Source: an uncultured Spartobacteria bacterium (GTDB lineage: Bacteria > Verrucomicrobiota > Verrucomicrobiia > Chthoniobacterales > Chthoniobacteraceae). From it: a stretch of 45,771 nucleotides of DNA. Below are positions 10,154-40,585 of the stretch, one piece after another. Every line of letters starts with the position of its first letter. Position 1 is the first letter of the stretch. Made by a program: the position numbers and the translations under genes. The notes beneath the pieces were generated by a model, which worked only from the letters and a program-made list of their open reading frames with translations, had not been told where the DNA came from and did no database searches. The DNA lies in the NCBI GenBank assembly GCA_903882875.1, contig CAIRYQ010000075.1, forward strand, positions 1-45,771, given 5' to 3'.

Positions 10154-10219
10154 TTTCTCCGCGGCGGCGGCGGTGCGCGGATCGGGATCGTCCTCGGCGA
10201 TGAGCCGTGCGGCGATTCG

Positions 10220-10222
10220 TTA
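10220..10222 (-). other. In-frame TAA stop splitting a PSCyt2/PSD1 gene
   Basis: Minus-strand codons read GAC GAG CCA TAA CGA ATC GCC. Both sides are in the same frame and keep family-like sequence (WKDEP before, RIAARLIAED after), so one substitution, for example GAA to TAA, would explain the break with no frameshift. The joined gene would span 7406-11485. It could be a true nonsense mutation, strain heterogeneity or a base-call error. Confidence 0.8.
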
Positions 10223-11485: not shown

Positions 11486-11630
11486 CGTGGGTTTCACGAA
11501 TGAATCCGATGCGTGCTGAAATGAAAGGCGGAGTCGCGGATGCACCGGCCAGACATCAAACGACCGAAGCCAGACCTCAAGCACGGCCACGTCCGGTACC
11601 GAGAAAAATCGGTTCGATCCCCGCGCGCGC

Positions 11631-21925: not shown

Positions 21926-24406
21926 ATGAATCCCTCCGATTCAAAACGAAGCCGCCCGCCGATCCTGCGGGGAACTGCCGCGTGTCTTGCGGGCTCGGTG
22001 CTGGCGTGGCTTTCCCCCGCAGGGATCGCCGCCGACGCGGTGAAGCTGGATGCGAAGGTGGCGGCCTACCTCGATGCGAATTGCGTGAACTGCCACGATG
22101 GCTCGTCGGACAAGACGGATTTCCGGATTGATAAGCTGTCCGCGAAAGTGGGGATCGAGGACACGCCGCAGTGGCTCGAAATGATGGAGCGGATCAATTC
22201 CGGCGAGATGCCGCCGAAGAAGGCGAAACATCATCCGGCTGCTGATGAGAGCGCGAGTGTGGTGGCGTGGATTTCCGCACGGATGAAGGAAGGCGAGGCG
22301 GCGCGCATGGCGGCGCGCGGGCGCGTGTCCTACAACCGCCTCACGCGCGACGAGTATGTGAACACGGTGCGCGATCTGATCGGCGTGCAGTACGACGCGA
22401 AGGATCCCGGCGCACTTCTCGATGATCCGGAGTGGCACGGCTTCGAGCGCATCGGCTCGGTGCTCACGCTCTCGCCGTCGAACATCGAAAAATATCTCGG
22501 CGCCGCGGAGACGATTCTCGCGGAGGCGTACCCGCCCGCGCCGCCGCCGCTGCGGAAAGGGCAGAAGCCGCCGGAGCCGTTTGGCGGCACGAAGCGCGCG
22601 ATTTTGGAGACCCAGGTGCCCGAGCGTCACCGCGAGCGGCTGCGCGAACTCGGGGTGCTGGACAAGGTGCGCTACGAAATGTGGCCGGGAGACAATTTCC
22701 GCTATTCGAATTTGCAGGATCCGCTGCCGGAGTCGGGCATCTACGAGATCAGCTACACGCTCAGCGGGCTGAAGCCGGAGAAGGGGCTCGCGCCGCGGAT
22801 CAAGGTGTATGAGGCGAAGCTGGATCGCGTGCTGTTCGAGCAGGACATCATCGCCCCGGAGGACAAGCCGACCACGGTCACTTTCCGCGCGCATTTGCCG
22901 AAGGGCAGGCCGACGATCGAGGTGTACAACGACGTGCCGGGGCCGTCGAATCTGCCGCGCTCGGGCCGTCACGGCGACGTGCCTTTCATCAGCACAAAAA
23001 TGGGCCGCATTCCCTGGCAGTTGAAGCTCACCGACGAGGAGGGCAAGCCGCGGTATCCGTTTTTGATTATGGATTCGATCACATGGCGCGGGCCGATCAT
23101 CACGGACGAGGAACTGGCGCGACGCGTGGCCTACATGCCGACCGAGGAGGGGAACATGGAGCAGGTGCGCGAATGCTTCGGGCGGCTGGCGCGGCGTGCA
23201 TTCCGCCGCCCGGTTTCGGCGGAGGAGGTGGATGCGTTTGTGGGCATCGTGAAATCCGAACTCGAGGCGAAGGAAAAATTTCCCGACGCGGTGAAGGCCG
23301 GGCTGCTGGCGATCCTCTGCTCGAAGAGTTTCATTTTCATCACCGAGGGCGACGAAAGCGCGAATCGCGACACGCTGAACGACTGGGAAATCGCCTCGCG
23401 CCTCTCGTATTTCCTGTGGAGCACGATGCCGGACGACGAGCTTTTCTCGCTCGCGGAAAAAGGGAAGCTCCGCGACAAGGAGGAACTGCGGCGGCAGTTC
23501 GCGCGCATGATCACCGATCCGCGTGCGGCGCGGTTCAGCGATTCGTTTGCGACTCAATGGCTGCGGCTGCGGAAGGTGGGGATGTTCCCGCCGGACAAGA
23601 AGCTTTTCCCCGACTACGACAAGCATCTCGAGGGAAGTATGATTGAGGAGTCGAAGGCGTTCTTCCGGGAGGTGCTGAACGGCGGGCTGACGCTGCGCGA
23701 ATTTCTGAACTCCGACTGGAGCATGATGAATTCGCGCCTCGCGGAATTCTACGGGCTGCCGGCTGCGGGCATGGCGGGCGACGAATTCCAGCGCGTGTCA
23801 CTTCCGGTGGAAAGCAAGCGCGGCGGCCTCCTCACGCAGGCGGCGATCCTTTCGCTCACGTCCGACGGCACGCGGCACCGCCCGGTGCATCGCGGCGTGT
23901 GGCTGAGCGAGGCGATCTTCGGCAAGACGCCGCCGCCTCCGCCCGCGAATGTCGAGCCCATCGCGACGAATCCCGTGGACGCGCCCAAGGCGACGCTGCG
24001 GATGAAACTCGAGGCGCACATTCACGACGCGAGCTGCGCCGCGTGCCACGCGAAGATCGATCCGCTCGGGCTCGCATTTGAAAATTACGACGCCATCGGG
24101 CGCTGGCGCACCGAGGAGGTCACCGACGGCACCGGTGAGAACCCGAAGGTGAACCCCTCCGGCAAACTTCCTGATGGCCGCGAATACGCGAATGCCGATG
24201 ATTTCAAGAGGCTGCTCCTCAGCAGCCTCGATTCATTCAACGCCGCATTCATCGAGAAGCTCGCGACCTACGGCCTGCGCCGCAGCGTGTCCTTCAGCGA
24301 CCGCGACGATTTGGCCGTGATCGCAAAGGCAAGCAAGGCGAAGGACTGCCGCATGCGCGATCTCATGGAGGCTTTCGTGTGCTCGGAGCTTTTCCAGAAG
24401 CGGTGA
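21926..24406 (+). CDS. Planctomycete-type cytochrome c protein (PSCyt1-PSD3-PSD5-PSD4-PSCyt3-PSD2), copy 1
   Basis: 826 residues from the ATG at 21926; the frame opens at 21779 but the extra codons look non-coding. A signal/anchor segment lies at about residues 15-36. Haem motif CVNCH is at 53-57 (PSCyt1). DUF1587 follows (YNRLTRDEYVNTVRDLIGV), then an inserted beta-sandwich (about 215-345) resembling a carbohydrate-binding module, DUF1595 (RLARRAFRRPVSAEEVDAF), DUF1592 (DWEIASRLSYFLWSTMPDDE), DUF1588 with a second haem motif CAACH at 704-708, and DUF1585 at the C-terminus. It should be an exported dihaem protein. The electron partner and substrate are unknown for the whole family. A DUF1552 gene follows, the usual pairing in this superphylum. 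Confidence 0.9.
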   Translation: MNPSDSKRSRPPILRGTAACLAGSVLAWLSPAGIAADAVKLDAKVAAYLDANCVNCHDGSSDKTDFRIDKLSAKVGIEDTPQWLEMMERINSGEMPPKKAKHHPAADESASVVAWISARMKEGEAARMAARGRVSYNRLTRDEYVNTVRDLIGVQYDAKDPGALLDDPEWHGFERIGSVLTLSPSNIEKYLGAAETILAEAYPPAPPPLRKGQKPPEPFGGTKRAILETQVPERHRERLRELGVLDKVRYEMWPGDNFRYSNLQDPLPESGIYEISYTLSGLKPEKGLAPRIKVYEAKLDRVLFEQDIIAPEDKPTTVTFRAHLPKGRPTIEVYNDVPGPSNLPRSGRHGDVPFISTKMGRIPWQLKLTDEEGKPRYPFLIMDSITWRGPIITDEELARRVAYMPTEEGNMEQVRECFGRLARRAFRRPVSAEEVDAFVGIVKSELEAKEKFPDAVKAGLLAILCSKSFIFITEGDESANRDTLNDWEIASRLSYFLWSTMPDDELFSLAEKGKLRDKEELRRQFARMITDPRAARFSDSFATQWLRLRKVGMFPPDKKLFPDYDKHLEGSMIEESKAFFREVLNGGLTLREFLNSDWSMMNSRLAEFYGLPAAGMAGDEFQRVSLPVESKRGGLLTQAAILSLTSDGTRHRPVHRGVWLSEAIFGKTPPPPPANVEPIATNPVDAPKATLRMKLEAHIHDASCAACHAKIDPLGLAFENYDAIGRWRTEEVTDGTGENPKVNPSGKLPDGREYANADDFKRLLLSSLDSFNAAFIEKLATYGLRRSVSFSDRDDLAVIAKASKAKDCRMRDLMEAFVCSELFQKR

Positions 24407-24422
24407 GCGTTTCTCTCCAATG

Positions 24423-24486
24423 ATTTTCAGTCTCGCTCCTCAAGTAATCAGGCGCTATCCTGCCGGCAGAAAGCTGACCTGAAAAT
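24423..24486. repeat. Inverted repeat in the leader of the first DUF1552 gene
   Basis: ATTTTCAG (24423-24430) and CTGAAAAT (24479-24486) are perfect 8-base inverted copies separated by 48 bases. Between them is a 10-base palindrome, CTGCCGGCAG (24460-24469). The set begins just after the PSC stop and ends about 50 bases before the DUF1552 start. It could fold as an intercistronic mRNA structure or be a protein-binding site; there is no T run to suggest a terminator. Chance is not excluded. Confidence 0.3.
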
Positions 24487-24535
24487 TCTTTCGCCAAATT
24501 CAAAGCCGCACCTTTCACACCAAGACCAAAATACC

Positions 24536-25897
24536 ATGAGCAACCTCATCCTCAACCGCTGGCGCATGAGCCGCCGTCAGATGCTTCGCGGCATCGGCGC
24601 CACCATCGCCCTTCCATTGCTCGACTGCATGGCCGTGCTGCCTGCGCCGTCGAAGCCGAAGCGCAGCGTCTTTCTTTACATCCCGAACGGCGTGAACACG
24701 CTCACCTGGCAGATCGAAAAGGCGGGGCGCGATTTCCAGTTTTCGAAGCCGATGGAATCGCTTGAGCGGCATCGTGCGGATGTCACGCCGATCAGCGGCC
24801 TGCATCACCCGATGGTCATCGGCAAGCATCACAACTGCGAGCGCGTGTGGCTCACCGGCGCGAATGTCCCCGGCGACGGCGGCGCATTCCGCAACACGGT
24901 CTCCGCCGACCAGCTCATGGCCGACGTGCAGGGGCCGTCCACGCGCTTTTCCTCGCTCGAAATGGCCATCGAGGGTGTGTCGCTCGCGTGGTCGAAGGAC
25001 GGCATCCAGATCCCCGCGGAGCGGAACACGCAGCAGATTTTCAACATGCTCTTCGGCGTGGAAAAGGACAGCAAGGAGACCATCCGCCGCCGCCTCAGCC
25101 GCCGTGGCAGCATCCTCGATCTCGTCGCGGATGATGCGAAGCGCATGAACAAAAAAGTCGGCGGCGAGGACCGCTCGAAGCTCGACGAATACTTCACCGC
25201 CGTGCGCCAGGTCGAGGAGCGCACGCGCCGCGCCGACGAGTGGCTGAACGTCCCCAAGCCCGCAATTCCCTCCGAGGAGGCCGCGCGTCTCCAGCGCAAA
25301 CTGAGCATGGCCGAAGCCGGGGAATACTACCGCCTTTTCTACGACCTCATGGTCATGGCACTGCGCACGGATTCCACGCGCGTGATCACCTGCGGCATCG
25401 GCAGCGAGGGCAACACGAGCGGCATCCCCGAGATCGGCATCTCGCAGACGCGCCACGGCCTCTCGCATCACAACGGCGACCCCGAGCAGCTCCGCCGCCT
25501 CACGCAGACGGACACATTCCTCATCGATCAGCTCAGCTACTTCCTCGATCAGCTCAAGTCGCATTCGGAAGACGGACGCCCGCTCCTCGACACCACGCAG
25601 GTGCTCTGGGGCAGCGGCATGGCATACGGCCACAGCCACGGCAACGCGAACCTGCCCATGATCCTCGCGGGCGGTAAAGCGCTCGGCTACAAGCACGGCC
25701 AGCATGTGGATTTCAACCTGCCGAAGGTCACGAAATACGACGTGACGAATTCGCAGGAGCACTACCGCATCTGCTCGCGCCCAGTGGATGGTGACGCGCG
25801 CGTGAGCAACCTGCTTCTCACCATGCTCCAGCGCGTGGACGTGAAGGCGGAAAAATTTCAGGACAGCATCCGTCCGCTGACGGAGTTGGTCGCGTGA
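24536..25897 (+). CDS. DUF1552 protein with Tat-type signal, copy 1
   Basis: 453 residues. The N-terminus carries a twin-arginine-like signal ([19 protein letters not shown]). The body is DUF1552: [47 protein letters not shown], the [11 protein letters not shown] linker, then a conserved C-terminal half with [32 protein letters not shown] and [17 protein letters not shown]. The repeated histidines and acidic residues suggest a metal site, and the fold may be related to DUF1501/alkaline-phosphatase-like enzymes, but activity is unproven. It follows the PSC gene by 129 bases, the usual partnership. Its stop overlaps the next start, so the following protein is coupled. Confidence 0.88.
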
Positions 25898-27174
25898 TGG
25901 CAGTGCCGTTCCGCACGCGCACGTTGATGCGCCCGCTACTCGCCGCCATGAGTGTGTTCCTCATCGCGCCGCTGCTCCATGCGGCGGACGCGCCAAAATT
26001 CCGCACCGATGCCGACGGCCCGGTGAAGGCGGACGAGAAGCGAAAAAATCCGAAGGATCGGAAGCCCGGTGACAAGCCCGACTGGTTTCTGCCTGTGGAC
26101 GGTGAGTTCCCGCCCGAGGGATCGGCGCACGCGATCTCGGGCGAACTCACGTCCGTGGATCACTTGGAGCGTCGCTTCCAGATCCGCGTGGATCGCAACG
26201 ACAGCCAGGATCGCGGCGTGTGGGATCTGCCGCTCGATGCCGGGATGCTGCCGTACGGCACGATCTATTTTCACGATGCATCCGCCGCGTTGCAGGACAT
26301 CCCGATCGGCACGCATCTGCACGGGCTCTTCTACCTCGCTGATCCGAACGACAAGACGCCCGCGCCGCCCACGGCGTACGGCCGCAAGACGCCGGAATAC
26401 GATTTCCGCCGTTGCTTCCGCATCGAGGACGACTTCACTTTTCACGCGCGGCAAAAGCAGCAGTGGAAAATCGAGAGCGTGGATATCGAGGCGAAGAAGC
26501 TCGCCGCCACACTGATCGAAAACGGCAAGCCCGTCGGCGATGGCAAGGCAAAGAATTTCGACCTCCTCTCGAGCACGCGCGTGATGCAGGGCAAAGGTTT
26601 CGCCGAACTCACTTCGCTGCAAGCCGGACAGATCGTTCAGATCAATCTCACATGGGCCACGCTCTACGGGCCGGGCCGCATCACGGACGTGTGGGTGGAC
26701 GACGCGAGCCGTGCGCTCGCCACCGGGCAGCAGCTCGAACGCCACCGCAACCACATCCGCGAGCGCGGGCTCGCCGGCTATGTCACCGCTGTTGAGGACG
26801 AGTCGCAGATCGTCACCATCACGTTTTTCGGCGGCGTGGATGATAAGCTCTTCGACGAACTCACGCTCACGAACAGCGACAAGATCGGCTGGCCGCTTTC
26901 GAAGGAACCCGAAAATCCCTCCGCGCCGAAAGGCACCATCGCCGTCGCGCGCGAGAGCCTCATGACCTACGATCCGGTGAACGACCGCAAGGGCGGCAAC
27001 ATTCTCGACATCAAAAAAATCCCCGCCGAACCCGGCAGCAGCGGCGTGCAGATCCGCGTGAAAGTGGACATGATGCTCGAGGGATACCGTCCGCGCCGAG
27101 TCATCCGCTTTTATCCCGCGACGTGGAAAGTCCAGGCCCTGCCGAGGGAGGAGCAGTTTCAGGGGCGAGAGTGA
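25894..27174 (+). CDS. Exported protein built from repeated OB-like beta modules (paralogue A)
   Basis: 426 residues from GTG 25894, or 425 from the adjacent ATG 25897; both overlap the DUF1552 stop. A signal peptide ends near AADAPKF. No catalytic motif is visible. The body has small beta modules in which a strand pair leads to a D-I/L-x-x-G turn: [20 protein letters not shown], then [20 protein letters not shown], then [20 protein letters not shown], and finally [20 protein letters not shown]. These resemble OB-type modules such as DUF5666. The last two blocks are clearly shared with the next gene (27266-28717), so the two are paralogues. It could be a periplasmic binding or scaffold protein for the PSC/DUF1552 pair. 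Family not recognised. Confidence 0.7.
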
Positions 27175-27265
27175 ACGCAGATTGCCGCGATCTTATTTCG
27201 CAGCCATTTTTCCGGAAAGGATTGCGCAACCCCACTTCTTCCCCTCCGCCGCCCGCTTGACACCC

Positions 27266-28717
27266 ATGAATTTGCCGCAGGTGTTTTCTTTGTTTTCAAG
27301 AGCCGTGCTTTGCTTCGCTTTGCTTGTGTCCGTGCAAGCGGCGGACACGGAGTTCCCTTCGCTCGACAAGACGAAGCGCGTGCGTGGCGAGCTGGTCAGC
27401 GCGGATTTCATTCATCGGGCCGGGCAATTTCGCACGGAGAAAGGCGAGCTGACGGATTTCACAATGCCGCCGTACGGCATCATGAAGTTCCAGGGCGCCG
27501 AGGCGGACCTGCGCGATGTGCCGCTCGGCGCGAAGCTGGAGTTTGTGCTGCTGCCGGATGCGCAGGGAAAATTTTCCCGGCTGGTGACGACGGAGTCTCC
27601 GGGCGAAGCCGACGCATCGTTGCGGAAGAAGTTTGAGGACTTCACGAAGGCTCGCGGTGTGGCGGGGTGGATTGACAGGACCGAGGGCAGGCAGGTGACG
27701 ATCACATTATTCACCGGCGATCCGGTGAGTTTCCAGGACCGCTACGATGCGCTGCTCGTGAAAGGCAAGGAGGCCCGAGTGTGCGTGGCAAACGACGAAC
27801 TGCGCACTTGGAATCCTGGCGTGGACGGCGAGCGCGGATCGATCACCGAGGTCACAAGGATTCCGGCGGATCGCATCGGATGCAGCGGCTATCGCGTGGT
27901 CGTGACCGTGCCGAACATGCTCGAAGGCTATCGCCGGGGACGTGTCGTGCGTGTGTTCCTCGATGGCTGGAAGGCGCGCGATCAGCTCTATGGCGAGAGC
28001 CTGATGGGCTACGGCTACGGCCGACTGCTCGATCAGGAACTCGTGGAGAACGTGGCGAAGGAATACCCCGAGCAGTTCCCGTTTCGCACCGACTACGCGA
28101 ACGAAAAGCTGCCGTGGTATCAGTTGAAACCCGGACAGGAACCGCCGCCATTTTCGGAGCACGTCGTCCACGGCGCGCTGGTGAAGCCGGGGCAGTTTCT
28201 CACGGAGCACACAGGTGAAGCGGCGGACTTCACGCTGATCGAAAAGGCGAAGGTTCGCTACCTCGGCAAGGATACGAAGCTCGAAGACATCCCGTCCGGC
28301 ACGCGCTGCCGTTTTCATTTGTATCAGGACGAGAAGGGCGCATTCACGAGGGCCGGTTTCGTGAGCGACGACTTCAGCCAGCGTGCGAGCAATTCTGTGA
28401 CGCTGCGGATAGACGCGCTGCATTTGGAAAAGGATCGCGTGGAGGCGTCGTGGCTGTTGCCTGAGGTGAAGAACTACAATGGCGACATGGAGCGTCCGCA
28501 GCCAATCGGTCGCTCGCTGTTGCGCGTCACGAAGGACACGCGTGTGTGGAAGCTGGACACGAAAATCGGAATCCGCGACTTGCGACTGAACGATCTCATC
28601 CTCGTGAACACCACCGCGGAAATTCCCGGTGAACCCGCGCAATGCACCGACATCTGGGTCGGTGAGGAGACGATCAAGCAGGTGTCCGCGCCGAACAGGC
28701 AGGCCGCGAAAAAGTGA
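27266..28717 (+). CDS. Exported protein built from repeated OB-like beta modules (paralogue B)
   Basis: 483 residues from ATG 27266, where a signal peptide begins (MNLPQVFSLFSRAVLCFALL); upstream codons to 27182 are unlikely to be used. It contains at least three copies of the small module, with motifs PPYGIMKFQGAEADLRDVPL, ARVCVANDELRTWNP, KVRYLGKDTKLEDIPSGTRC and RVWKLDTKIGIRDLRLNDLI. A block GVAGWIDRTEGRQVTITLF and NMLEGYRRGRVVRVFLDGWK match paralogue A at corresponding positions. The stop falls five bases before the second PSC gene, so it is the bridge between the two PSC modules. No enzyme motif. Function unknown. Confidence 0.7.
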   Translation: MNLPQVFSLFSRAVLCFALLVSVQAADTEFPSLDKTKRVRGELVSADFIHRAGQFRTEKGELTDFTMPPYGIMKFQGAEADLRDVPLGAKLEFVLLPDAQGKFSRLVTTESPGEADASLRKKFEDFTKARGVAGWIDRTEGRQVTITLFTGDPVSFQDRYDALLVKGKEARVCVANDELRTWNPGVDGERGSITEVTRIPADRIGCSGYRVVVTVPNMLEGYRRGRVVRVFLDGWKARDQLYGESLMGYGYGRLLDQELVENVAKEYPEQFPFRTDYANEKLPWYQLKPGQEPPPFSEHVVHGALVKPGQFLTEHTGEAADFTLIEKAKVRYLGKDTKLEDIPSGTRCRFHLYQDEKGAFTRAGFVSDDFSQRASNSVTLRIDALHLEKDRVEASWLLPEVKNYNGDMERPQPIGRSLLRVTKDTRVWKLDTKIGIRDLRLNDLILVNTTAEIPGEPAQCTDIWVGEETIKQVSAPNRQAAKK

Positions 28718-28721
28718 TGCC

Positions 28722-31100
28722 ATGAAATCGTTTCTGATCATCGGGTTCATTGTCGTGTGCGGGGCGCTCCCGTGCGTCGCCGCCACTGCGCCGGAGCCGC
28801 ACGTCGCGACCTTTTTCAAGGCCCACTGCAACAAGTGCCACGACGAAAAAAAACAGAAGGGCGATCTGCGCGTGGACAACCTGATGGTTGATTTTTCCTC
28901 GCCGAAAATCATGGGCAACTGGGAGGAGATCATGAACCGCATCAACTCCGGCGACATGCCGCCCGAGAAGGAGAAACGGCCCAAGCCTGACGACATCGCC
29001 AGCGTCGCGGAGTGGATCGCCGGTCAGCTCCGCGAAGGCGAAGCCGTGCGACAGGCGTCCGGCACGGACAAGGTCGCCTTCCTTAAGCTCACGCGTGAGG
29101 AATATGCGAACACGATCCGCGATTTGCTCGGCGTGACGTTCGAGGTCAAGGGCGCGGCCGGGCTGCCGGAGGATCCGGATTGGAAAGGCTTCGAGCGCAT
29201 CGGCTCCGTGCTCACGCTTTCGCCCACGCACGTCGAAAAATATCTCGCGGCTGCGGAGATGGTGCTCGATGAGGCGCTGTCATTGCGGCCCGAACCGAAG
29301 CGCGACGCCATCGTGTGGACCGCATGGGACATGCGCTGGAAGGGATTCCAAAAGGAATACGAGGCCCGCGGCATCGCCGATCAGGTGCGCATCGAAATCG
29401 TGCCGAACAACTACACGACCGACACTTGGAACCTCGATGTGAAGACCACGGGCGACTACCTCGTGCGCGTAAAGCTGAGCGGCCTGCGGGCGCAGGGCGG
29501 ACGCGCGCCGCGGCTGAAAGTGTATCTTTCAAACGTGGACAAGACGCTCATCGAGCAGGACGTGGACGCCGCCGAGGACAAGCCCGTCACCATTGAGAAG
29601 CGCGTGCATCTCATCGCGGGAAAATACCCCGTGCGAATCATCAACAGCGTGCCCGGCCCGAATCCCGAGGGCCGCCGGTCGCGGCACAGCGGCACGCCGA
29701 ATGCATTCACGAACACGCGCAACCGCGTGCCGTGGCAGATCAAACTTACGGACGACGACTGCAAGCCGATCCAGCCGACGCTCATCATTGATCGTGTGGA
29801 ATGGGACGGCCCGATCGTGGATTCGTGGCCCACGGCGGCGCATCAGCGCATCTTCGCGAGCAAGGACGCGCGCGAAATCGTGTCGAAGTTTGCCGAACGC
29901 GCATGGCGCAGACCCGTGCAAAGCGGCGAGGTAGATCGCCTGATGAAGCTCGTCGAAAAAGCGCAGTCGCTCGGAGATAACTTCGAGGCGTCGGTGCGCA
30001 CGGCGCTTGTTGCCGTGCTGAGTTCGAAGAGCTTCATCTACCTCGAGGAGGGCAGCACGAAAAAGGCGTCGCCGACGCTCAACGACTGGGAGCTGGCTTC
30101 GCGCCTGTCCTACTTTCTCTGGAGCACGATGCCCGATGAGCGCCTCGCCGAACTCGCGCGCACGAACACCTTGCGCGCGCATTTGCAGGCTGAGGTGAAA
30201 CGCATGCTGGCCGATCCGAAGGCGAAGGCATTTGCCGATAGTTTCCCGCGCCAGTGGCTGCAACTGCGCCGCGTCGGGATGTTCCCGCCGGACAAGGTGC
30301 TGTATCCCGACTACGATGAAAACCTCGAGGAAAGCATGGTCGCCGAGACGCTCGCGTTCTTCGCCGATGTGCTGCATCGCAACGGGAGCTTGCGCGAATT
30401 CCTCGACTCCGACTGGACGATGCTCAACGAGCGGCTCGCCACGCACTACGGCCTCGAAGGCGTGCGCGGTGACGACATGCAGCGCGTGTCGCTCAAGCCC
30501 GAAGACCATCGCGGCGGCCTGCTCACGCAGGGCTCCGTGCTCAGTCTCACCAGCGACGGCACGCGGCATCGCCCTGTGCATCGCGGCGTCTGGGTGCTCG
30601 ATTCGATCATCGGAAAGCCCGCGCCTCCGCCTCCCGCGAACGTCCCGGCGCTCAATACTCCGGCTGCCGATCAAAAGAAAACCACCGTGCGTGAAAAACT
30701 CGAACAGCATCGCGCCGATCCGAACTGCAATGCGTGTCACACGAAGATCGATCCGCTCGGCGTCGCGTTCGACAACTACGATGCCATCGGCCGCTGGCGC
30801 ACGGTCGAGGCGGTGAAGGACGGTGTCGGCGAGGATCCGAAGCTCGATGCGAGCGGCACGCTGAACGACGGACGCACATTCAAGAATGCCGCCGATTTGA
30901 AAAAGCTGCTGCTCGCCGACGCCGACAAGTTTGCCTCCGCCGTCACGGAGAAGCTCGCGACGTATGCCCTGCGTCGCGGCACGACTTTTTCGGATCGCGC
31001 CGAGATGAAGCGCATCACCGAGCAATCCAAGGTGGACGAGTACAAGCTGGCCTCGTTGATCGAGGAGATCGTGACGAGCGAGCTTTTTCTCAAACGCTGA
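28722..31100 (+). CDS. Planctomycete-type cytochrome c protein, copy 2
   Basis: 792 residues from ATG 28722, giving a signal peptide (MKSFLIIGFIVVCGALPCVA). It has the same order as copy 1: haem motif CNKCH at 36-40, DUF1587 (KLTREEYANTIRDLLGV), an inserted beta-sandwich (about 215-330), DUF1595 (FAERAWRRPVQSGEVDRL), DUF1592 (DWELASRLSYFLWSTMPDER), DUF1588 with CNACH at 669-673, and DUF1585. The two copies align along their whole length and share near-identical runs such as VGMFPPDK, so they arose by duplication. No DUF1552 gene follows directly; the next one is at 38130, after four putative carbohydrate-active or hydrolase genes. Role inferred as periplasmic electron transfer linked to substrate oxidation. 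Confidence 0.9.
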   Translation: MKSFLIIGFIVVCGALPCVAATAPEPHVATFFKAHCNKCHDEKKQKGDLRVDNLMVDFSSPKIMGNWEEIMNRINSGDMPPEKEKRPKPDDIASVAEWIAGQLREGEAVRQASGTDKVAFLKLTREEYANTIRDLLGVTFEVKGAAGLPEDPDWKGFERIGSVLTLSPTHVEKYLAAAEMVLDEALSLRPEPKRDAIVWTAWDMRWKGFQKEYEARGIADQVRIEIVPNNYTTDTWNLDVKTTGDYLVRVKLSGLRAQGGRAPRLKVYLSNVDKTLIEQDVDAAEDKPVTIEKRVHLIAGKYPVRIINSVPGPNPEGRRSRHSGTPNAFTNTRNRVPWQIKLTDDDCKPIQPTLIIDRVEWDGPIVDSWPTAAHQRIFASKDAREIVSKFAERAWRRPVQSGEVDRLMKLVEKAQSLGDNFEASVRTALVAVLSSKSFIYLEEGSTKKASPTLNDWELASRLSYFLWSTMPDERLAELARTNTLRAHLQAEVKRMLADPKAKAFADSFPRQWLQLRRVGMFPPDKVLYPDYDENLEESMVAETLAFFADVLHRNGSLREFLDSDWTMLNERLATHYGLEGVRGDDMQRVSLKPEDHRGGLLTQGSVLSLTSDGTRHRPVHRGVWVLDSIIGKPAPPPPANVPALNTPAADQKKTTVREKLEQHRADPNCNACHTKIDPLGVAFDNYDAIGRWRTVEAVKDGVGEDPKLDASGTLNDGRTFKNAADLKKLLLADADKFASAVTEKLATYALRRGTTFSDRAEMKRITEQSKVDEYKLASLIEEIVTSELFLKR

Positions 31101-31110
31101 TCGTTCACCA

Positions 31111-33521: not shown

Positions 33522-33553
33522 CGCTGCAATTTCAAATGGCCTTTTGTCAGCAC

Positions 33554-35491
33554 ATGAAGACCCACACGCTCACCGTGCTCATGTTCATCATCGCGCTGTT
33601 CGCAGCGTCGCAGTCGCAGGCTGCGCAGCTCGCACCCGGCGCGGGCCGATTTGAAGTTTCACACGACGGCCGCACGATTCCCGTTTGGTATTTCCTGCCG
33701 GAAAATGTGCGCGCCGACGCGCCGGTGCTCATCGTCATGCACGGCGTCAATCGCGACGCGGACCGCTATCGCGACGAATGGACGCCGCACGCGAAGAAAT
33801 ACGGATTCATCCTCGTCGCGCCCGAATTTTCCAAGGAGGCGTTTCCCGGCGACGACGGCTACACGCTGGGCGTGAAGGGCGCGTTCGGTTTCATCGAGCC
33901 GGTCTTCGACGCGGTGAAGGCAGCGACGGGAAATCGCAGCGAGCGCTATCATCTTTACGGTCACTCGGCGGGCGCGCAGTTCGTGCATCGCTTTCTTTAT
34001 TTCGTGCCGCAGGCGCGCGTGGCGAAGGCCGTGGCCGCGAATGCCGGCTGGTGGACGATGCCCGATCCCGCGATTGATTTTCCTTACGGGCTGCACAACT
34101 CGCCGGTGGATGACGCCGCGCTCAAATCCGCGTTGCAGCGTCCGCTCACGGTGCTGCTCGGCACTGCGGACATTGATCCAAATCACGTTCATCTGCGCCG
34201 CACGCCCGAGGCGATGGCGCAGGGGCCGTATCGCTTCGCCCGCGGGCACGCTTTTTTCGCAGCGGGAAAAAGCCGGGCTGCGGCGCTCGGCGTGCCGCTC
34301 GGCTGGCAGCTCGCGACCGCGCCCGGCGTGGCTCACGAGGACAAAGGCATGGCGGTGTTTGCAGTGAAGGAACTGTTCGGCCAGCCGCAAATCGTGCCGC
34401 GCGATCCCGCGCACGCGCGCATCCTCTTCGCCGGCGACACGAGCGGCGGCGAGAGTTACCAGGAGGAATACGCGAAGCAGGGTGGCGTGAACATTCTCAC
34501 GCAAAAAGGCTACGAGTATGGCCTCGCGAAACTCCGCCCGCTGCTCGCGGCGGTGGACTTTCGCGTCTTCAATCTCGAAACACCGCTGACCGCGCGCCAC
34601 GACAGCCCGCTCAAGGGCAAGGACTATTTGCACTACAGCGATCCGGTGAAGCTGCCCGCGCTCTTCACGCCGTTCGGCCCGCTTGCCGTTTCGCTCGCCA
34701 ACAATCACAGCATGGACCAAGGCCCCGAGGGACTCGACGACACCCGCGCCGCGCTCAGCGCGGCGGGCGCATCGTGGTTCGGCGCAGGCTGCAATCTCAC
34801 CGAGGCTGCGCGACCGCTGCTCCAGGAATTTCGTTTGGGCGGAAAATCGTTCACGCTCGCCATCTTCGGTGCGTTCGATTTTCGCAAGGAATACGACGAG
34901 AAATTTCACTTCTACGCCGACGCCGACCATCCCGGCGCCGCACCTACCGATGTGCCCGCGGTGAAAAAGGCGATTGCCGAACTGCGGCGCACGAAGCCCG
35001 ATGCGTTCGTCGTTTATTTCGTGCATTGGGGTGACAACTACGTTTGGAAAAACGCGAAGCAAGTGGCGATGGCGCACGCGTTGCGCGAGGCTGGCGTGGA
35101 CCTCGTCGTCGGCGCGCACGCGCACATGATGCAGGAAGTCGAGCACGACGGGCGCGGCTGGATTTTCTACAGCGTCGGCAATCTGATGTTCAATGCGAAG
35201 GGCCGCTACACCGCGCACCACGCACCGCCCTTCAGCCTCCCGCTCGTCGTGGATTTTTCGATGAAGGACGGCCACCTGCAAACAAGCCTGCGCGTGTATC
35301 CCATCGTGAGCGACAACCAGCTCACGGACTATCAGCCCCGATTCGTGACTGAGACCGAGCTGTCGGCGATCGACGCGCTGCTCGCGGAAAAAAGCGGCTG
35401 GGATTCCGCAGCACGCGCCGCGGTGCGACGTGGCACGGATGACATCGGGCCGTGGCTGGAATTCACCACTCCGCAGCACACGGCCAAATAG
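33554..35491 (+). CDS. Fusion of alpha/beta-hydrolase and CapA-like metallophosphatase
   Basis: 645 residues from ATG 33554, which begins a signal peptide (MKTHTLTVLMFIIALFAASQ). The N-terminal half (about 25-285) is an alpha/beta-hydrolase: APVLIVMHGVN, then LYGHSAGAQFVHRFLY with Ser in GHSAG, and late ADID and AHEDKG segments that could supply Asp and His. The C-terminal half (about 290-600) matches the PGA_cap/CapA metallophosphatase family: ILFAGDTSGGESY, FNLETPLT, SLANNHSMDQGPEGLDD, VYFVHWGDNYVW, VVGAHAHMMQEVE and FYSVGNLMF. I do not recall this fusion as a standard architecture. CapA relatives act on poly-gamma-glutamate or exopolymers; the joint substrate is unknown. Confidence 0.82.
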   Translation: MKTHTLTVLMFIIALFAASQSQAAQLAPGAGRFEVSHDGRTIPVWYFLPENVRADAPVLIVMHGVNRDADRYRDEWTPHAKKYGFILVAPEFSKEAFPGDDGYTLGVKGAFGFIEPVFDAVKAATGNRSERYHLYGHSAGAQFVHRFLYFVPQARVAKAVAANAGWWTMPDPAIDFPYGLHNSPVDDAALKSALQRPLTVLLGTADIDPNHVHLRRTPEAMAQGPYRFARGHAFFAAGKSRAAALGVPLGWQLATAPGVAHEDKGMAVFAVKELFGQPQIVPRDPAHARILFAGDTSGGESYQEEYAKQGGVNILTQKGYEYGLAKLRPLLAAVDFRVFNLETPLTARHDSPLKGKDYLHYSDPVKLPALFTPFGPLAVSLANNHSMDQGPEGLDDTRAALSAAGASWFGAGCNLTEAARPLLQEFRLGGKSFTLAIFGAFDFRKEYDEKFHFYADADHPGAAPTDVPAVKKAIAELRRTKPDAFVVYFVHWGDNYVWKNAKQVAMAHALREAGVDLVVGAHAHMMQEVEHDGRGWIFYSVGNLMFNAKGRYTAHHAPPFSLPLVVDFSMKDGHLQTSLRVYPIVSDNQLTDYQPRFVTETELSAIDALLAEKSGWDSAARAAVRRGTDDIGPWLEFTTPQHTAK

Positions 35492-35528
35492 CTCAAGCCA
35501 TCGCACCGAACCGCCACAACCATCCGCC

Positions 35529-38045
35529 ATGAAACATATCCCCGCATTTTTTCTCAGCGCGCTCGCTTTGCTTCGCACAATCGTCCCGTGTCACGCAGCC
35601 GAGCCGCCGAAGCCGGATCGCTACGATGTCAGCCAGTGGGCGATGCCGGAATACACGGAGGATTTTTTCAAGGGGCGCACGGCTTGCGGCGCGGATGCGC
35701 TGACGTTCTGGATGCAGAGCACGGATTATCGCAGCAGACACGACAAGCCGGGGATGAGCCGGACGCAGTTTGAGCGGCTGTGGAGCGGCGATGCCGCGGA
35801 CATCGCGAAGGTGAACGCGGAGATTTTGGCAGACTGCAAAAAGGCGCTCGAAGACATTGCGGCGTTTCGCAAAAACAGGGGCGCGCGTGCGGCGTGGATG
35901 TGGATCATCCTTGCGTTGCGCGCGCACGATCAGCTCACGCCGGAGACGCATCGCGCGATTGAGGAAGTTTTGAGCAAGATGGAACTGACCCATCCCGACA
36001 GCGGCTATGTGAACTGGCTTGAAACGCCCGGCGGCAACGGTGCGAACGTTCACGGTCATCTCACGCCGCTCGCGCTCGGGCCGGAGCTGATCCACGACGA
36101 CCGTGCGCGTGCCGCGGCGTTCGGGGGATTCCGCCGCGAACTGGATCACATGAATTCGACCGGCGACGTGGAGGAGTTCAATCTGCTCGAGAGCCATTGG
36201 ACGGGCACGATTGATTGGGAAATCATGAAGCGCTACATCAGCGATCCGCAGTTGAAGCGCATGGCGCGGATGATCGCGGAGCGTGTGTGGATCAATCGCT
36301 TTCTCACATGGTCGTCCGCGGTCGAGCGCAACACCGGCCCCGGCAGCCGCATGGCTCCGAGCGAATGGCTCGGCTGCGACAACGAGCGTTTCCTTTTCGC
36401 GACTGGTTTGGAAAAACCGATCTGGCTGAATCTTTTCGTGCCGTGGGGTGTGTGGGATGTGCGCGCCGCCCACATGACCTGGCCGGCGACGGAGACGACC
36501 GCGATGGTGCCCGATCTGCCGTCGTATTTGCAGGATCTCGCGTGGCGGAAAATTTTTCCGAATGAAATGCAAAGCGCGCTGACGCACATCCCGATCACGA
36601 ATTATCCGCACCTCGACATGCCCGACGGCGACGTGGCGCGGCCGATGAAATACGTGAATTATCAAACCGAAAACTACACGCTCGGCTCGGCCACTTCGTC
36701 GTGGGGCGTGAACACTTGCAATGTGCAAGCGTGCGCGTTCTGGAACAACAGCCGCGCCGCTGCCGCGCCGCTCGGCAGCCCGGAAAAATTTTGCGTGCTC
36801 TATCCGCACTACGTTTTCAATGGCATGAGCTTTCTCGACAAAGGCGACATTTATTTCGACAAATCCAAAAAGCCCGGCGAGCCGCTGGCCGACGACAAAG
36901 GCGGGCCGCGCGGGCCGTGGATGCGCGAGTTCATCGAGTTTGGGCGCATGGGCACCGTGCAGGATCGCGGCATGCTCATCGCGAGCTACACGGCGAAGCC
37001 CGGCACGCATTACGGGAACCTTGTGAAAAGCAAAGTGCAGCGCGCGTCCGCCGCGATGTTTCTCATGCGCTGGACGGACGGCACGGACGGCCTGTTCGTG
37101 AATCGCGAGCCGGTGAAGCAACTGCCCGTCGAGCTGAAGCCGGGCGACTGGTGGTTCATCGAGGACGGCGATGTTTACGCCGCGGTGCGACCGCTGGAAA
37201 CGACGCGCCTGCGCGGTGGCAAAACGATCCTCGAAAAACGCACGCGCCACGTCGTGCTCTACGAGGACAATGTCGCCGCGGAAAACATCGAAGGCATTTC
37301 GGACGAGGAGTGGGTCAAGGCGCGCAGCGGCTTCGTCGTCGAGATGGGCAGCAGAGCCGAGCACGGATCGTTTACGAAATTTCAGGATCAAATTCTCGCG
37401 GGCAAAGTCACCGACGAAGCCGACGGCTTCACTCGCCACGTCGCATATCAGCGTGGGGATCGCAGCCTCGACATGCGCTGGCATTCTTACACCGAGGAAT
37501 ACGCGAGCCGCAAAATCAGCGGTCACGACGACGCGTGGGTGCGCTTTTTGCAGTCGCCGGAATTCGCCGTGAGCGACTCCGGCAAACTCGCCGTAAAGGA
37601 CGCCACGCTGCAAACCACGCCGGGCAAAACGATGTGGCTGCTCGCGTGTGCGCCTTCGCAAACGTGGGTCGCCTACCAGCCGAACGCCGAGCAGGAACTG
37701 CCCGTGGATTTGACCACTCCCGCCGGCCATCTCACGGCCGCGCGTTTTCCCTTCGGCAAACTCGTGCTGAAAGAAAACGCCGACCACTCGCTGCTCGTGG
37801 ACATTGACGCGAGCTACCAGCCGTTTTCCGGCAGCAACACACGATTGGAGCGCGCGCAACGCACCGGCTGGGTGCCGTCGGAGATCGTGCTTGATTCCAC
37901 CGCGCCGAAAGTGACGGCGCAAATCAACGGCATCCACTACACGATGCGCCATGAAGATCGTGCCGGAAAAAAGGTCTGGGTGTTCAATCCCTACGGCAAC
38001 GCGAAGGCGCTCTCGGAAACAGCACAGTTGCCGCTGCACCAGTGA
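35529..38045 (+). CDS. 838-residue exported protein, possibly a toroid-plus-sandwich lyase
   Basis: 838 residues from ATG 35529, which starts a signal peptide (MKHIPAFFLSALALLRTIVP). I do not recognise the family. The first 400 residues are helix-rich with conserved-looking aromatic and His positions (for example YVNWLETPGGNGANVHGHL and FNLLESHWTGTIDWEIM), reminiscent of the (alpha/alpha)6 toroid of polysaccharide lyases or GH-type enzymes. The last 400 are strand-rich (for example VELKPGDWWFIEDGDVYAAV), as in the sandwich domains that follow such toroids. The arrangement therefore suggests a glycan-degrading enzyme, but no catalytic residue can be named. It lies between the hydrolase-CapA fusion and the second DUF1552. 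Confidence 0.65.
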   Translation: MKHIPAFFLSALALLRTIVPCHAAEPPKPDRYDVSQWAMPEYTEDFFKGRTACGADALTFWMQSTDYRSRHDKPGMSRTQFERLWSGDAADIAKVNAEILADCKKALEDIAAFRKNRGARAAWMWIILALRAHDQLTPETHRAIEEVLSKMELTHPDSGYVNWLETPGGNGANVHGHLTPLALGPELIHDDRARAAAFGGFRRELDHMNSTGDVEEFNLLESHWTGTIDWEIMKRYISDPQLKRMARMIAERVWINRFLTWSSAVERNTGPGSRMAPSEWLGCDNERFLFATGLEKPIWLNLFVPWGVWDVRAAHMTWPATETTAMVPDLPSYLQDLAWRKIFPNEMQSALTHIPITNYPHLDMPDGDVARPMKYVNYQTENYTLGSATSSWGVNTCNVQACAFWNNSRAAAAPLGSPEKFCVLYPHYVFNGMSFLDKGDIYFDKSKKPGEPLADDKGGPRGPWMREFIEFGRMGTVQDRGMLIASYTAKPGTHYGNLVKSKVQRASAAMFLMRWTDGTDGLFVNREPVKQLPVELKPGDWWFIEDGDVYAAVRPLETTRLRGGKTILEKRTRHVVLYEDNVAAENIEGISDEEWVKARSGFVVEMGSRAEHGSFTKFQDQILAGKVTDEADGFTRHVAYQRGDRSLDMRWHSYTEEYASRKISGHDDAWVRFLQSPEFAVSDSGKLAVKDATLQTTPGKTMWLLACAPSQTWVAYQPNAEQELPVDLTTPAGHLTAARFPFGKLVLKENADHSLLVDIDASYQPFSGSNTRLERAQRTGWVPSEIVLDSTAPKVTAQINGIHYTMRHEDRAGKKVWVFNPYGNAKALSETAQLPLHQ

Positions 38046-38129
38046 ACTTTAACGCGCCGTCCAATGCTGGCGGCGGAAATGTTTCGTCAAGAAACTGTGG
38101 TCGGCAGGATATAGTGTAGGACAATCGCC

Positions 38130-39524
38130 ATGAACATTCTCGCCCAACGCTGGCTCCTGAACCGCCGTCATTTTCTGCGCGGCCTCGGCGCGACGGTCGC
38201 GCTGCCGCTGCTCGACGCGATGATCCCGTTGCGCGCGCGTGCGGCTGCACTCGCAAAGCCGAAGCGCAGCGTTTTTGTGTACATTCCGAATGGCGTAAAT
38301 GGCATGACTTGGCAGTGCGCAAAGTCGGGACGCGACTACGAGCTGTCGGAGTCGCTGAAGCCGCTCGCGAAGCACCAGGGCGACTTCACGGTATTCAGCG
38401 GATTGCATCATCCGAACGGTCTCGGCCAGGCGCACGTCTGCGCGGACACATGGCTCACGGGCGCGAAGATTGATGCGCAAAGCGGGCGCAAGTACGAGAA
38501 CACGGTGTCGTGCGATCAGCTCATGGCCGAGACCGTAGGACAGCAGACGCGTTTCTCGTCGCTGGAACTATCTATCTCATCGGGCACGGGACATCCGTTT
38601 GGAACGAACACGCTCGCCTTCTCGCGTGACGGTGTGCCGCTGCCGGCGGAGGACAATCCGAAGACGATCTTCAACCGCCTGTTCGGCGAGGAACCCGGCG
38701 GCATCGCCGCTCAGCGCACGCGGCTCGCGAAGCGCCGTAGCGTGCTGGACGAGGTGCTTGAAGACGCGGGTGCGCTGCGCCGCGAACTCGGCAAGGACGA
38801 CCGCACGAAGCTCGACGAATACCTGCACGCCGTGCGCGACGTGGAGCAGCGCACCGAGCGTCTCGACGCGTGGCTCGACGTTCCGAAGCCCAAGCTCGAC
38901 ATCAAGCTCGCCGCGCCCTTCCAGCGCGATGTGCCGAAGGCGCAGGCGGGCGAGTACTGGCGCACGATGTTCGATATGATCGTGCTCGCGCTGCGCACGG
39001 ACATGACGCGCGTGGTGACGTACATGAATGGCAGCGAGGGCAACGGCCTCGCGATTCCCGAGATCGGCATCACGCAGGCGCGGCACAATTTGTCCCATCA
39101 CAACGGCGATCCCGTCGTGCTTGAGCGCCTCGCGAAGAGCGATGCGTTCATCATGCAGCAGTTCGCGCATTTCCTGGATGAATTGGGCAGCATCAAGGAC
39201 GGCGACGAGGCACTGCTCGATCGTACGATGGTGCTCTTCGGCAGCGGCATGAGCTACGGCCACAGCCACGCGAACAGCAACCTGCCGATCCTGCTCGCAG
39301 GCGGCAAAGGGCTCGGCCTGAAGCACGGCCAGCACATTGACTACAACCGCCCGCACATGAAGGGCGACTACACGTTCAGCTACGACGAATGGCGCGCGCT
39401 CTGCGGCAAACCGAAGGACGAAAAGGCGCGGCTCAACAACGTGCTGCTGACGATGCTCCAGAAGATGGACGTGGAGGCCGGGAAGTTTGTGGACAGCCTC
39501 GGGCCTGTCAGTGCGATCGTGTGA
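38130..39524 (+). CDS. DUF1552 protein with Tat-type signal, copy 2
   Basis: 464 residues. The twin-arginine-like signal (NRRHFLRGLGATVALPLLDA) is closer to the Tat consensus than copy 1. It aligns along its length with the first DUF1552 protein: [88 protein letters not shown] and LFGSGMSYGHSHANSNLP. It appears to be the displaced partner of the second PSC protein. The start lies 84 bases after the previous stop, in a gap that contains a TATAGT at 38110 but no good -35 element. Confidence 0.88.
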   Translation: MNILAQRWLLNRRHFLRGLGATVALPLLDAMIPLRARAAALAKPKRSVFVYIPNGVNGMTWQCAKSGRDYELSESLKPLAKHQGDFTVFSGLHHPNGLGQAHVCADTWLTGAKIDAQSGRKYENTVSCDQLMAETVGQQTRFSSLELSISSGTGHPFGTNTLAFSRDGVPLPAEDNPKTIFNRLFGEEPGGIAAQRTRLAKRRSVLDEVLEDAGALRRELGKDDRTKLDEYLHAVRDVEQRTERLDAWLDVPKPKLDIKLAAPFQRDVPKAQAGEYWRTMFDMIVLALRTDMTRVVTYMNGSEGNGLAIPEIGITQARHNLSHHNGDPVVLERLAKSDAFIMQQFAHFLDELGSIKDGDEALLDRTMVLFGSGMSYGHSHANSNLPILLAGGKGLGLKHGQHIDYNRPHMKGDYTFSYDEWRALCGKPKDEKARLNNVLLTMLQKMDVEAGKFVDSLGPVSAIV

Positions 39525-39583
39525 CGCCCGGTCCGGCTGACGTGGCACCGCCCCTTTTTTACCAACACACCAAACCAACCCCG

Positions 39584-40585
39584 ATGAAAAAACTCCTGCT
39601 CTCCCTGTTCGTGCTGCCCTTTGCCACTGGTGCAATCTTTGCGCTGGATCCCCACGCCGAAGCCGTCACACGCATCGTCGAGGGCGCGAAAGGAAAGGTG
39701 GAAAAGACGGAAGACGGCCAGAGCCTGAAGCTCGTGGATCTCGCCGTGCCAAACACGGGGCCGCACGACAAGCGCGAGAATGATCCGTATGACGCGGCAT
39801 TTTTCGAGCATCTCGGGCACATCGCCACGTTGGAGTCGTTGAACATCATCTCCACGAAATTCAACGACGAGTGGATGCCGAACATCGCGAAGCTCACGAA
39901 CCTCAAGACGCTGCGCTTCACGAACAATGGCAAGCTGACCGATGCGGGCATGGAGCAGCTTGCGGGGTTGAAAAATCTGGAGCTCTTCAATTTTGTCGGC
40001 ACGCAGATCACAGGGCGTGCGTATGCGAAGTTCGACGGCTTCACGAAGCTCGTCAAAGTCAGCCACCGCGGCAGTTCGATTGATGACGCGGGCCTGATGG
40101 AACTCTGCGATCACCTGCCGAACCTCGAAGGCATCAGTCTCGCGCATGCGAAGTTCACGGACGCCGGCGCGGTGCATTTGGAAAAGCTCACGAAGCTCAA
40201 GAGCCTCGAACTCGGCACGCACAATGCCACGCCGAAGGCGCTGCAGCACCTCGCGAAACTACCGCTGGAATATCTCCAGGTCGGCGAGGGATTCGAGTCG
40301 CCGGCGAGCATCCCGTACATCAAGGCCATCCCGAATCTGAACCGCATCACCTTCACGAATGCGAAGGCGCTCACCGACGCCGACCTGAAGCAGATCGCCG
40401 GCATGGGCAATGTGCAGATGCTGGAATTCACCGGCATCGAACTCACCGACGAACGCGTGGAGCATCTGAAGGTGTTCTCCTTGTTGAAATCGCTGAAACT
40501 CCTCAACCGGCCGAAGCCCTACGCGCCGGAGGTGCAGGCGAAGATCAAGGCACTGCTGCCGAAGACGGAGTTGAAATTCGAGTAG
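39584..40585 (+). CDS. Exported leucine-rich-repeat protein
   Basis: 333 residues from ATG 39584, with signal peptide MKKLLLSLFVLPFATGAIFA. Most of the mature protein is built of cysteine-containing-type LRR units: LTNLKTLRFTNNGKLTDAGM, LAGLKNLELFNFVGTQIT, LPNLEGISLAHAKFTDAG and similar, about eight repeats in all. It has no membrane segment beyond the signal and no catalytic motif. Such proteins are usually binding or scaffold modules and are common in planctomycetes and verrucomicrobia next to cytochrome genes. It closes the 19 kb block and is followed by a likely terminator. Confidence 0.85.
   Translation: MKKLLLSLFVLPFATGAIFALDPHAEAVTRIVEGAKGKVEKTEDGQSLKLVDLAVPNTGPHDKRENDPYDAAFFEHLGHIATLESLNIISTKFNDEWMPNIAKLTNLKTLRFTNNGKLTDAGMEQLAGLKNLELFNFVGTQITGRAYAKFDGFTKLVKVSHRGSSIDDAGLMELCDHLPNLEGISLAHAKFTDAGAVHLEKLTKLKSLELGTHNATPKALQHLAKLPLEYLQVGEGFESPASIPYIKAIPNLNRITFTNAKALTDADLKQIAGMGNVQMLEFTGIELTDERVEHLKVFSLLKSLKLLNRPKPYAPEVQAKIKALLPKTELKFE

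Follow-up and report, generated by a model that had tools for sequence, protein, structure and literature searches.

An eleven-gene PSC/DUF1552 locus of an uncultured Spartobacteria bacterium, read as two divergent modules with a putative third partner

Genes encoding planctomycete-specific cytochromes (PSC) have been considered in the context of carbohydrate use before: He et al. (2017; PMC5615132) suggested that PSCyt genes have a carbohydrate-related role. The constant neighbor gene of the PSCyt3-type genes in that study is probably DUF1552, since the family is counted three times in the source and is absent from its main text, which would place the name in the supplement (figure S7, Text S1). 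DUF1552 is also mentioned in PMC2754498. In the literature searched, no functional study of PSC/DUF1552 genes was found, and no paper named DUF1552 and DUF1592 together. The locus presented here is a block of eleven genes (positions 21926 to 40585) on contig CAIRYQ010000075.1 of the uncultured Spartobacteria assembly GCA_903882875.1; the whole contig of 45,771 nucleotides is referred to as the window and is contig C75 of the host draft genome (5.78 Mb, 129 contigs). The block contains two PSC genes, two DUF1552 genes, two genes of a family designated A/B, and genes for predicted hydrolytic enzymes. PSC and DUF1552 genes are widespread and are present in tens of copies in the host genome. A clade with a putative third partner, a predicted DUF1552 fold with few invariant Asp and His residues, and recognizable cargo enzymes provide definite proteins and substrates for testing.

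Module structure and phylogeny of the block

All eleven genes were located on the + strand, at the position and in the order given by an earlier reading of the window from sequence alone (the sequence-only reading). That reading described the block as a PSC/DUF1552 pair that had been duplicated and pushed apart by four hydrolytic genes; the block reads best, however, as two divergent modules standing side by side. Module I comprises PSC1 (21926-24406), the DUF1552 gene D1552a (24536-25897), and the gene for protein A (25894-27174). Module II comprises the gene for protein B (27266-28717), PSC2 (28722-31100), four cargo genes (encoding an esterase-type hydrolase [EST], a GH5-type glycoside hydrolase, a PahZ1-CapA fusion, and an unplaced protein), the second DUF1552 gene D1552b (38130-39524), and a leucine-rich-repeat (LRR) gene (39584-40585). 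Identity between the modules was 49% for the PSC proteins and 53% for the DUF1552 proteins, and closer relatives were found elsewhere, at different loci among the 11 compared (77% for PSC1 and 87% for D1552a, 75% for PSC2 and 86% for D1552b).

Trees were built from 90 DUF1552 and 91 PSC sequences, after removal of PSC matches shorter than 500 residues and of DUF1552 matches with fewer than about 330 residues aligned or a score under 60 bits. Genes associated with A/B formed a single clade in each tree (54 of 90 DUF1552 and 52 of 91 PSC sequences), with a bipartition support of 1.0 in both. Within these clades, 50 of the 54 DUF1552 genes had an A/B gene within 4.5 kb and 51 of the 52 PSC genes had one within 7.5 kb; the four remaining DUF1552 genes (in L089, L117, and L119 and D1552b of the window), which lacked one at this distance on their stretch, had a B-type gene farther away or on an adjoining stretch. 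Two DUF1552 and two PSC sequences outside the clade were set aside, as their A/B label came only from adjoining a pair of the A/B clade. Only three pairs of the host genome belonged to the clade, namely, both window pairs and a pair on contig C117, which was also accompanied by an A gene. The two pairs of the window fell in different subclades, and the PSC and DUF1552 trees were congruent.

Genes of the PSC2 and D1552b types were adjacent to each other, and Module I was absent, in L083, L091, L117, L120, and the more distant L121. One part of the earlier description was thus borne out, in that PSC2 and D1552b, with matching subclades and relatives that are adjacent elsewhere, are mates separated by four genes; an in-place duplication of the first pair was not. 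A recent local duplication was rejected on the basis of the 49% and 53% identities, the closer relatives in other genomes, and the separate subclades. Insertion of Module II between protein A and the LRR gene of Module I was favored at first, as A and LRR genes are contiguous in relatives, and was then dropped. LRR relatives stood beside modules at ten loci (L037, L038, L041, L042, L043, L048, L071, L117, L118, and L129). The closest LRR found (71%) is that of L117, two genes after D1552b, and the two settings are intermingled in the LRR tree; the LRR gene is therefore not assignable to one module.

A counterpart of Module II with cargo was found in another genus of the same family (L089), with the order B-PSC2-217 amino acids (aa)-esterase-GH5-581 aa-D1552b and identities to the window of 69% (PSC2), 82% (D1552b), 75% (EST), 72% (GH5), and 52% (B). 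On this gene order, the esterase-GH5 insertion is common to the window and L089. A relative of the 581-aa protein of L089 is encoded behind the C117 module in the host genome. Both the esterase gene and the GH5 gene of L089 (10043-12669, - strand) are broken into two frames, by decay or assembly error. The sequence-only reading had named the lack of a conserved neighborhood in relatives as grounds for abandoning its proposal; the core recurs widely and so escapes this refutation, whereas the complete eleven-gene block, present in no other genome examined, does not.

A protein of about 385 to 409 aa also recurred near modules: it follows D1552b in L117 (3732-4886, - strand; without a Pfam match) and L119 (324-1487, - strand), whereas in L039 (1497-2723, + strand) its distance from the module is about 3 kb.

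The A/B family

The main new result is the A/B family, which, judged from sequence comparisons, appears to be a clade-specific third partner of PSC and DUF1552 proteins; such a partner was not found in print in the literature searched, which did not extend to supplements. Protein A is secreted-looking and had no family in Pfam or NCBIfam. Protein B, a member of this family as well, aligns with the two outer barrels of the three predicted for A, skips the middle one, and has an extra C-terminal half. Of 213 genomes of the order, 20 had A-like genes; B was matched in 37 of 384 genomes of the class (many via A-type genes) and the A2 profile in 9 of 387 genomes of a phylum sample, each count including the host genome. 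Scans of viral contigs with B and with alignment A2 gave no relative, and a viral origin was rejected. Seven named A/B loci came from the genome collection, including those of Prosthecobacter, Verrucomicrobium sp. BvORR106 (L039, with Module I), and two metagenome-assembled genomes labeled Planctomycetota. The DUF1552 sequences of the latter two fell among the others in the tree, so mislabeling or transfer is possible.

Among 84 scored A/B genes (excluding those of the window and after removal of the duplicates L034, L035, L036, and L084), same-strand DUF1552 was found within 4.5 kb in 74, PSC within 7.5 kb in 77, and both in 71. Several loci came from one genome, so the 84 genes are not independent, and the loci were fetched for relatives of A/B or of the cargo, so these figures describe the placement of A/B and not that of PSC. 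Of 13 A/B genes without both partners, 5 were at the end of a stretch or contig (L046, L090, L092, L093, and L118) and 3 were in clusters that cargo had lengthened (L043 at 7414, L089, and L116). The commonest order was PSC-DUF1552-A/B, the number of A/B copies ranging from one to four. Exceptions included B upstream (L089 and the window), A copies to either side (L066), PSC behind A (L079 and L132), and PSC-A without DUF1552 (L043 and L045).

A weak, distant relative of A (33 bits; L159 128-1276, + strand; host C84:53346-53858) was found directly upstream of a PSC gene that does not belong to the A/B clade. This match suggests that the OB-barrel A/B family may extend further than the clade.

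Core proteins, predicted folds, and cargo

The PSC and DUF1552 labels given to the genes beforehand were confirmed by Pfam. Both PSC1 and PSC2 scored over the Pfam cutoff for PSD3, PSD5, PSD4, PSCyt3, PSD2, and PSCyt1, and each contained two CXXCH motifs (residues 53-57 and 704-708 in PSC1), in agreement with their earlier designation as putative dihaem cytochromes. Two such motifs were present in 87 of 91 PSC open reading frames (ORFs), and M95 was present in 90 of 90. The central PSC region was considered as a carbohydrate-binding domain and rejected, two pieces of it having no Pfam match at E values up to 2. The DUF1552 (PF07586; HXXSHH) scores were 292.8 bits for D1552a (E = 4.8e-87) and 326.3 bits for D1552b (E = 3.2e-97), against a cutoff of 30. 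Twin arginines were found at the N termini of all 88 aligned DUF1552 sequences, and a simple RR pattern, which is a motif count and not an export predictor, in 84 of 90. Residues D125, D195, H307, and H311 were invariant (90 of 90), and H368 was present in 87 of 90. Pairing of PSC with DUF1552 is not special to this locus. The host genome had 35 PSCyt3 matches over the cutoff and 35 DUF1552 matches (after merging of four C84 rows); 30 of the 35 PSCyt3 genes had a same-strand DUF1552 gene within 5 kb, a limit that lets a few (PSC2 of the window included) count via a neighboring pair, and 28 of the 35 DUF1552 genes had a PSCyt3 gene equally near.

Structure prediction for DUF1552 had been proposed as a way of finding a metal site. 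The AF2 model of D1552a (mean pLDDT, 67.6; pTM, 0.74; 11 sequences) was matched in VIA to NPP/ENPP, sulfatase, or phosphoethanolamine-transferase chains in all 50 rows listed (Z = 11.9 to 13.2; 197 to 258 residues aligned; root mean square deviation [rmsd], 3.9 to 6.0), the rows reaching residues 32 to 453. The best Foldseek match was a sulfatase (E = 2.1e-3), with unrelated proteins in lower rows. DUF1552 is thus predicted to have an alkaline-phosphatase-superfamily core fold. As to the metal site, the invariant D125, D195, H307, and H311 are candidates only. The model of protein A (mean pLDDT, 70.1; pTM, 0.69; 13 sequences) contained three runs of OB-like strands. Domain 1 is predicted to be a five-strand, CusF-like OB barrel: the top four Foldseek matches were CusF (probability, 1.00; best E = 1.5e-3), and VIA matched CusF with Z values of 8.1 to 8.4 over 75 to 83 residues (best Z = 8.4, 75 of 75 residues, rmsd of 2.6). 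Domain 2 resembled cold-shock proteins (Z = 6.5), and domain 3 resembled barrels from various proteins, helicases and ATPases among them (Z up to 8.5). The Pfam family CusF_Ec was matched weakly (E = 0.25) in 1 of 13 A/B family members.

The cargo genes follow PSC2. EST (31111-32493) is a putative alpha/beta-hydrolase of the polyhydroxybutyrate-depolymerase/esterase type with a GVSMG motif; its Pfam and NCBIfam matches were below the cutoff, and a 57-residue match to LC-Est1C (E = 1.4e-7) was accompanied by weaker ones to further esterases. A relative (37% identical) stands directly behind another PSC/DUF1552 pair of the host genome (L140). The GH5-type glycoside hydrolase (32490-33521) scored modestly above its Pfam cutoff (29.9 versus 23.5 bits), its Protein Data Bank (PDB) sequence matches were mannanases over about 60 to 90 residues, and NE motifs were found at residues 171 and 255. 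GH5 relatives occurred in 7 of 213 genomes, host included, and adjoined distant PSC/DUF1552 pairs in L086 and L088; no recognized pair stood beside them in L085 and L087. The next gene (33554-35491), read earlier as hydrolase/CapA, retained its CapA label and was corrected to a fusion with a PahZ1-like N-terminal half. This half matched poly(aspartic acid) hydrolase-1 (6ve6; E = 1e-70; residues 26 to 274) and retained GHSAG, GTAD, and a late AH in the alignment, and thus combines PahZ1-type similarity with the nucleophile motif; the C-terminal half carried the Pfam family PGA_cap and matched PGA_cap structures 8gq9/8gqb more weakly than the first half matched 6ve6. No relative of the fusion was among the module-locus matches listed, whole genomes not having been searched for it. 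The fourth cargo gene (35529-38045) encodes a secreted-looking protein of 838 aa, for which Pfam (E up to 2), NCBIfam, and PDB sequences (E up to 1) gave no match, so that its earlier designation as lyase-like was dropped. Attempts to name it from these databases and from the frames of weak relatives gave nothing; apart from itself, three weak partial matches were found in 213 genomes.

Seven proteins of the block (two PSC, two DUF1552, GH5, PGA_cap, and LRR [LRR_4]) had a family over the Pfam cutoff, and A, B, EST, and the 838-aa protein had none. Signal sequences were judged by eye from the N termini, which appeared twin-arginine-like in D1552a, D1552b, and GH5 and Sec-type in the remaining proteins. 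Stops and starts, previously said to overlap often, overlapped at only 2 of 10 junctions (4 bp each), and the other gaps were 4 to 129 bp. This tight spacing suits one or a few transcripts. A pattern scan gave 2 promoter-like sites (2.9 expected) and 32 terminator-like sites (20.0 expected; standard deviation, 4.3), the latter mostly within genes. In Pfam scans, no SusC/SusD or transporter family was found among the eleven genes, and GH5 was single, so the block does not class as a polysaccharide utilization locus.

Neighbors at other modules included NHL/FlgD-like, lactonase, sulfatase, and PSD1/DUF1501 proteins. In a census of 94 ORFs from 33 stretches around the other pairs of the host genome (window excluded), sulfatase was found in 3 of 94, with one member each of Glyco_hydro_95_cat, Glyco_hyd_65N_2, and MGH1-like_GH, possibly all from a single protein; the 25 families listed for a control of 94 of 193 ORFs included neither sulfatase nor any of these three. 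DUF1501 was counted 3 times in both sets, and PSD1 was counted 3 times around the pairs versus 5 times in the control. The census is a weak test, with 25 of 119 and 25 of 98 families listed, some ORFs possibly spurious, and control regions chosen by the authors, and it suggests at most a slight glycan lean.

Elsewhere in the window, a PSCyt1-DUF1549 ORF (10220-11770, - strand) and a LamG-DUF1553 ORF (7406-10153, - strand) share a reading frame with one in-frame stop between them, and together (7406-11770) they look like a single interrupted PSC gene of another type. A weak DUF1552 match (30.4 bits) lies at the contig start (1-141, - strand). A 1,337-aa protein (642-4655) was considered as a relative of module cargo and rejected, as it had no phmmer match in six loci; its families were not scanned.

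Competing readings and comparison with known systems

Observed gene content, order, clades, and homologies, together with predicted folds and an inferred mechanism, lead to an explanation given an even chance of being right: the block would hold two divergent versions of a single secreted system of three proteins, PSC-DUF1552-A/B, arranged head to tail and probably cotranscribed. DUF1552 would be exported folded via the twin-arginine (Tat) route and, with an alkaline-phosphatase-type fold and the Asp/His set D125, D195, H307, H311, and H368, would bind metal and work on a substrate in the periplasm or at the surface. The c-haem protein PSC would be its partner, either in electron transfer or as a redox sensor, and A/B would be an OB-barrel accessory that binds substrate or metal. 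Such a core would be general purpose, with exchangeable adjoining cargo fitting it to a given polymer; this cargo would be predicted ester-, mannan-, and polyamide-cutting enzymes in the window and sulfatase, lactonase, or NHL proteins elsewhere. PSC/DUF1552-A/B may be compatible with either redox or hydrolytic chemistry. A bolder version, considered improbable, is a metallo-redox system, in which a CusF-like A would load or hold copper or another metal for DUF1552, the His-rich site of the latter would be turned to redox and wired to the dihaem PSC, and the depolymerases would aim it at polymers. If true, this would be an undescribed secreted system.

Several observations weigh against the three-protein explanation. 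The four cargo genes occur together only in the window among the loci examined. Five of the 84 A/B genes have no recognized DUF1552 nearby and no evident contig end or cargo to account for it (L043 at 2007, L045 at 9812, two in L070, and L081), and D1552b in L119 has no adjoining PSC. Neither model had a Foldseek match reaching an E value of 0.001 (best, 2.1e-3 for D1552a and 1.5e-3 for A). The D1552a model is of mediocre quality overall, and its residues 91 to 104, 290 to 313, and 362 to 371, which contain H99, H307/H311, and H368, had a pLDDT below 50. The DUF1552 profile gave hhalign probabilities of 0.2 and 1.4 against 11 sulfatases of the host genome, a negative outcome in a comparison of low power. 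The alkaline phosphatase superfamily usually carries an Asp-His motif, which was not seen near GSGM at residues 359 to 362 of DUF1552. For protein A, the Z values are near what any common barrel can give. CusF-like chaperones bind metal through His, Met, and Trp ligands, and the likely ligands in A are partly conserved (H90 in 67 of 73, M118 in 52 of 73, and H127 in 60 of 73; numbered from base 25894 and thus 11 above the model numbering).

The most probable rival, although somewhat unlikely, is a locus for the hydrolytic use of a polymer that is mixed or contains poly(amino acids), in which the cargo enzymes would be the active part and the PSC/DUF1552 modules would serve as a noncatalytic surface scaffold or protection. 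The strong PahZ1-like match with its retained motifs, the CapA domain, the esterase, the GH5 with both NE motifs, and a constant core with exchangeable cargo are all consistent with this. The conserved Asp and His residues of DUF1552 and the haem motifs argue instead for chemistry in the core, and the presence of EST and GH5 inside the module in two genera also counts against a passive role for it.

Less probable, and unlikely overall, is the oxidative attack on a polysaccharide proposed in the sequence-only reading, in which PSC and DUF1552 would form a redox enzyme that oxidizes or breaks the glycan and GH5 and the esterases would finish it. The haem motif pairs across PSC ORFs, the GH5 and esterase genes shared within the module by two genera, the esterase relative behind the L140 pair, and the GH5 relatives at L086 and L088 point in this direction, as do carbohydrate-binding domains reported for some PSCyt proteins in the He et al. 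article (PMC5615132). However, apart from PSC, no known redox catalyst (oxidase or lytic polysaccharide monooxygenase) was among the family matches of the block, the DUF1552 model resembles hydrolases and transferases, and one cargo enzyme matches a poly(amino acid) hydrolase. The slight glycan lean of the census and the GH5 relatives of L085 and L087, with no pair beside them, also count against it, and the same article gives an anticorrelation between PSCyt and glycoside hydrolase densities (r = -0.62).

Upkeep or remodeling of the cell's own surface polymer, with PahZ1-CapA trimming or anchoring a poly(amino acid) coat, is very unlikely: the joining of a CapA/PGA_cap domain to a poly(aspartate)-type hydrolase and the LRR and OB-barrel proteins without catalytic signatures would suit it, but no polymer synthase was among the family matches of the block, and the fusion had no relative in the listed matches from module loci, the search for it having been confined to these.

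Set beside known systems, DUF1552 has a predicted overall fold like the one found in NPP/ENPP, MCR-1-type transferases, and sulfatases (the alkaline phosphatase superfamily), together with several conserved Asp and His residues, but it differs in that no sequence match was found and the Asp-His motif was not seen. The first predicted barrel of protein A matches the whole chain of CusF, a periplasmic copper/silver chaperone, whereas A differs in its three barrels and its PSC/DUF1552 module setting, and its metal ligands are candidates only. PahZ1 (6ve6) and PGA_cap proteins (8gq9) match the N- and C-terminal halves of the protein at 33554-35491; in the window, the two are parts of a single secreted-looking fusion protein encoded within a PSC/DUF1552 module. 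The PSCyt3-type planctomycete-specific cytochrome genes of PMC5615132 have the same PSC domain set, a constant neighbor gene of unknown function, and a high copy number in Verrucomicrobia, as here; the section of the article on these genes names no third partner, whereas the modules of the window have A and B.

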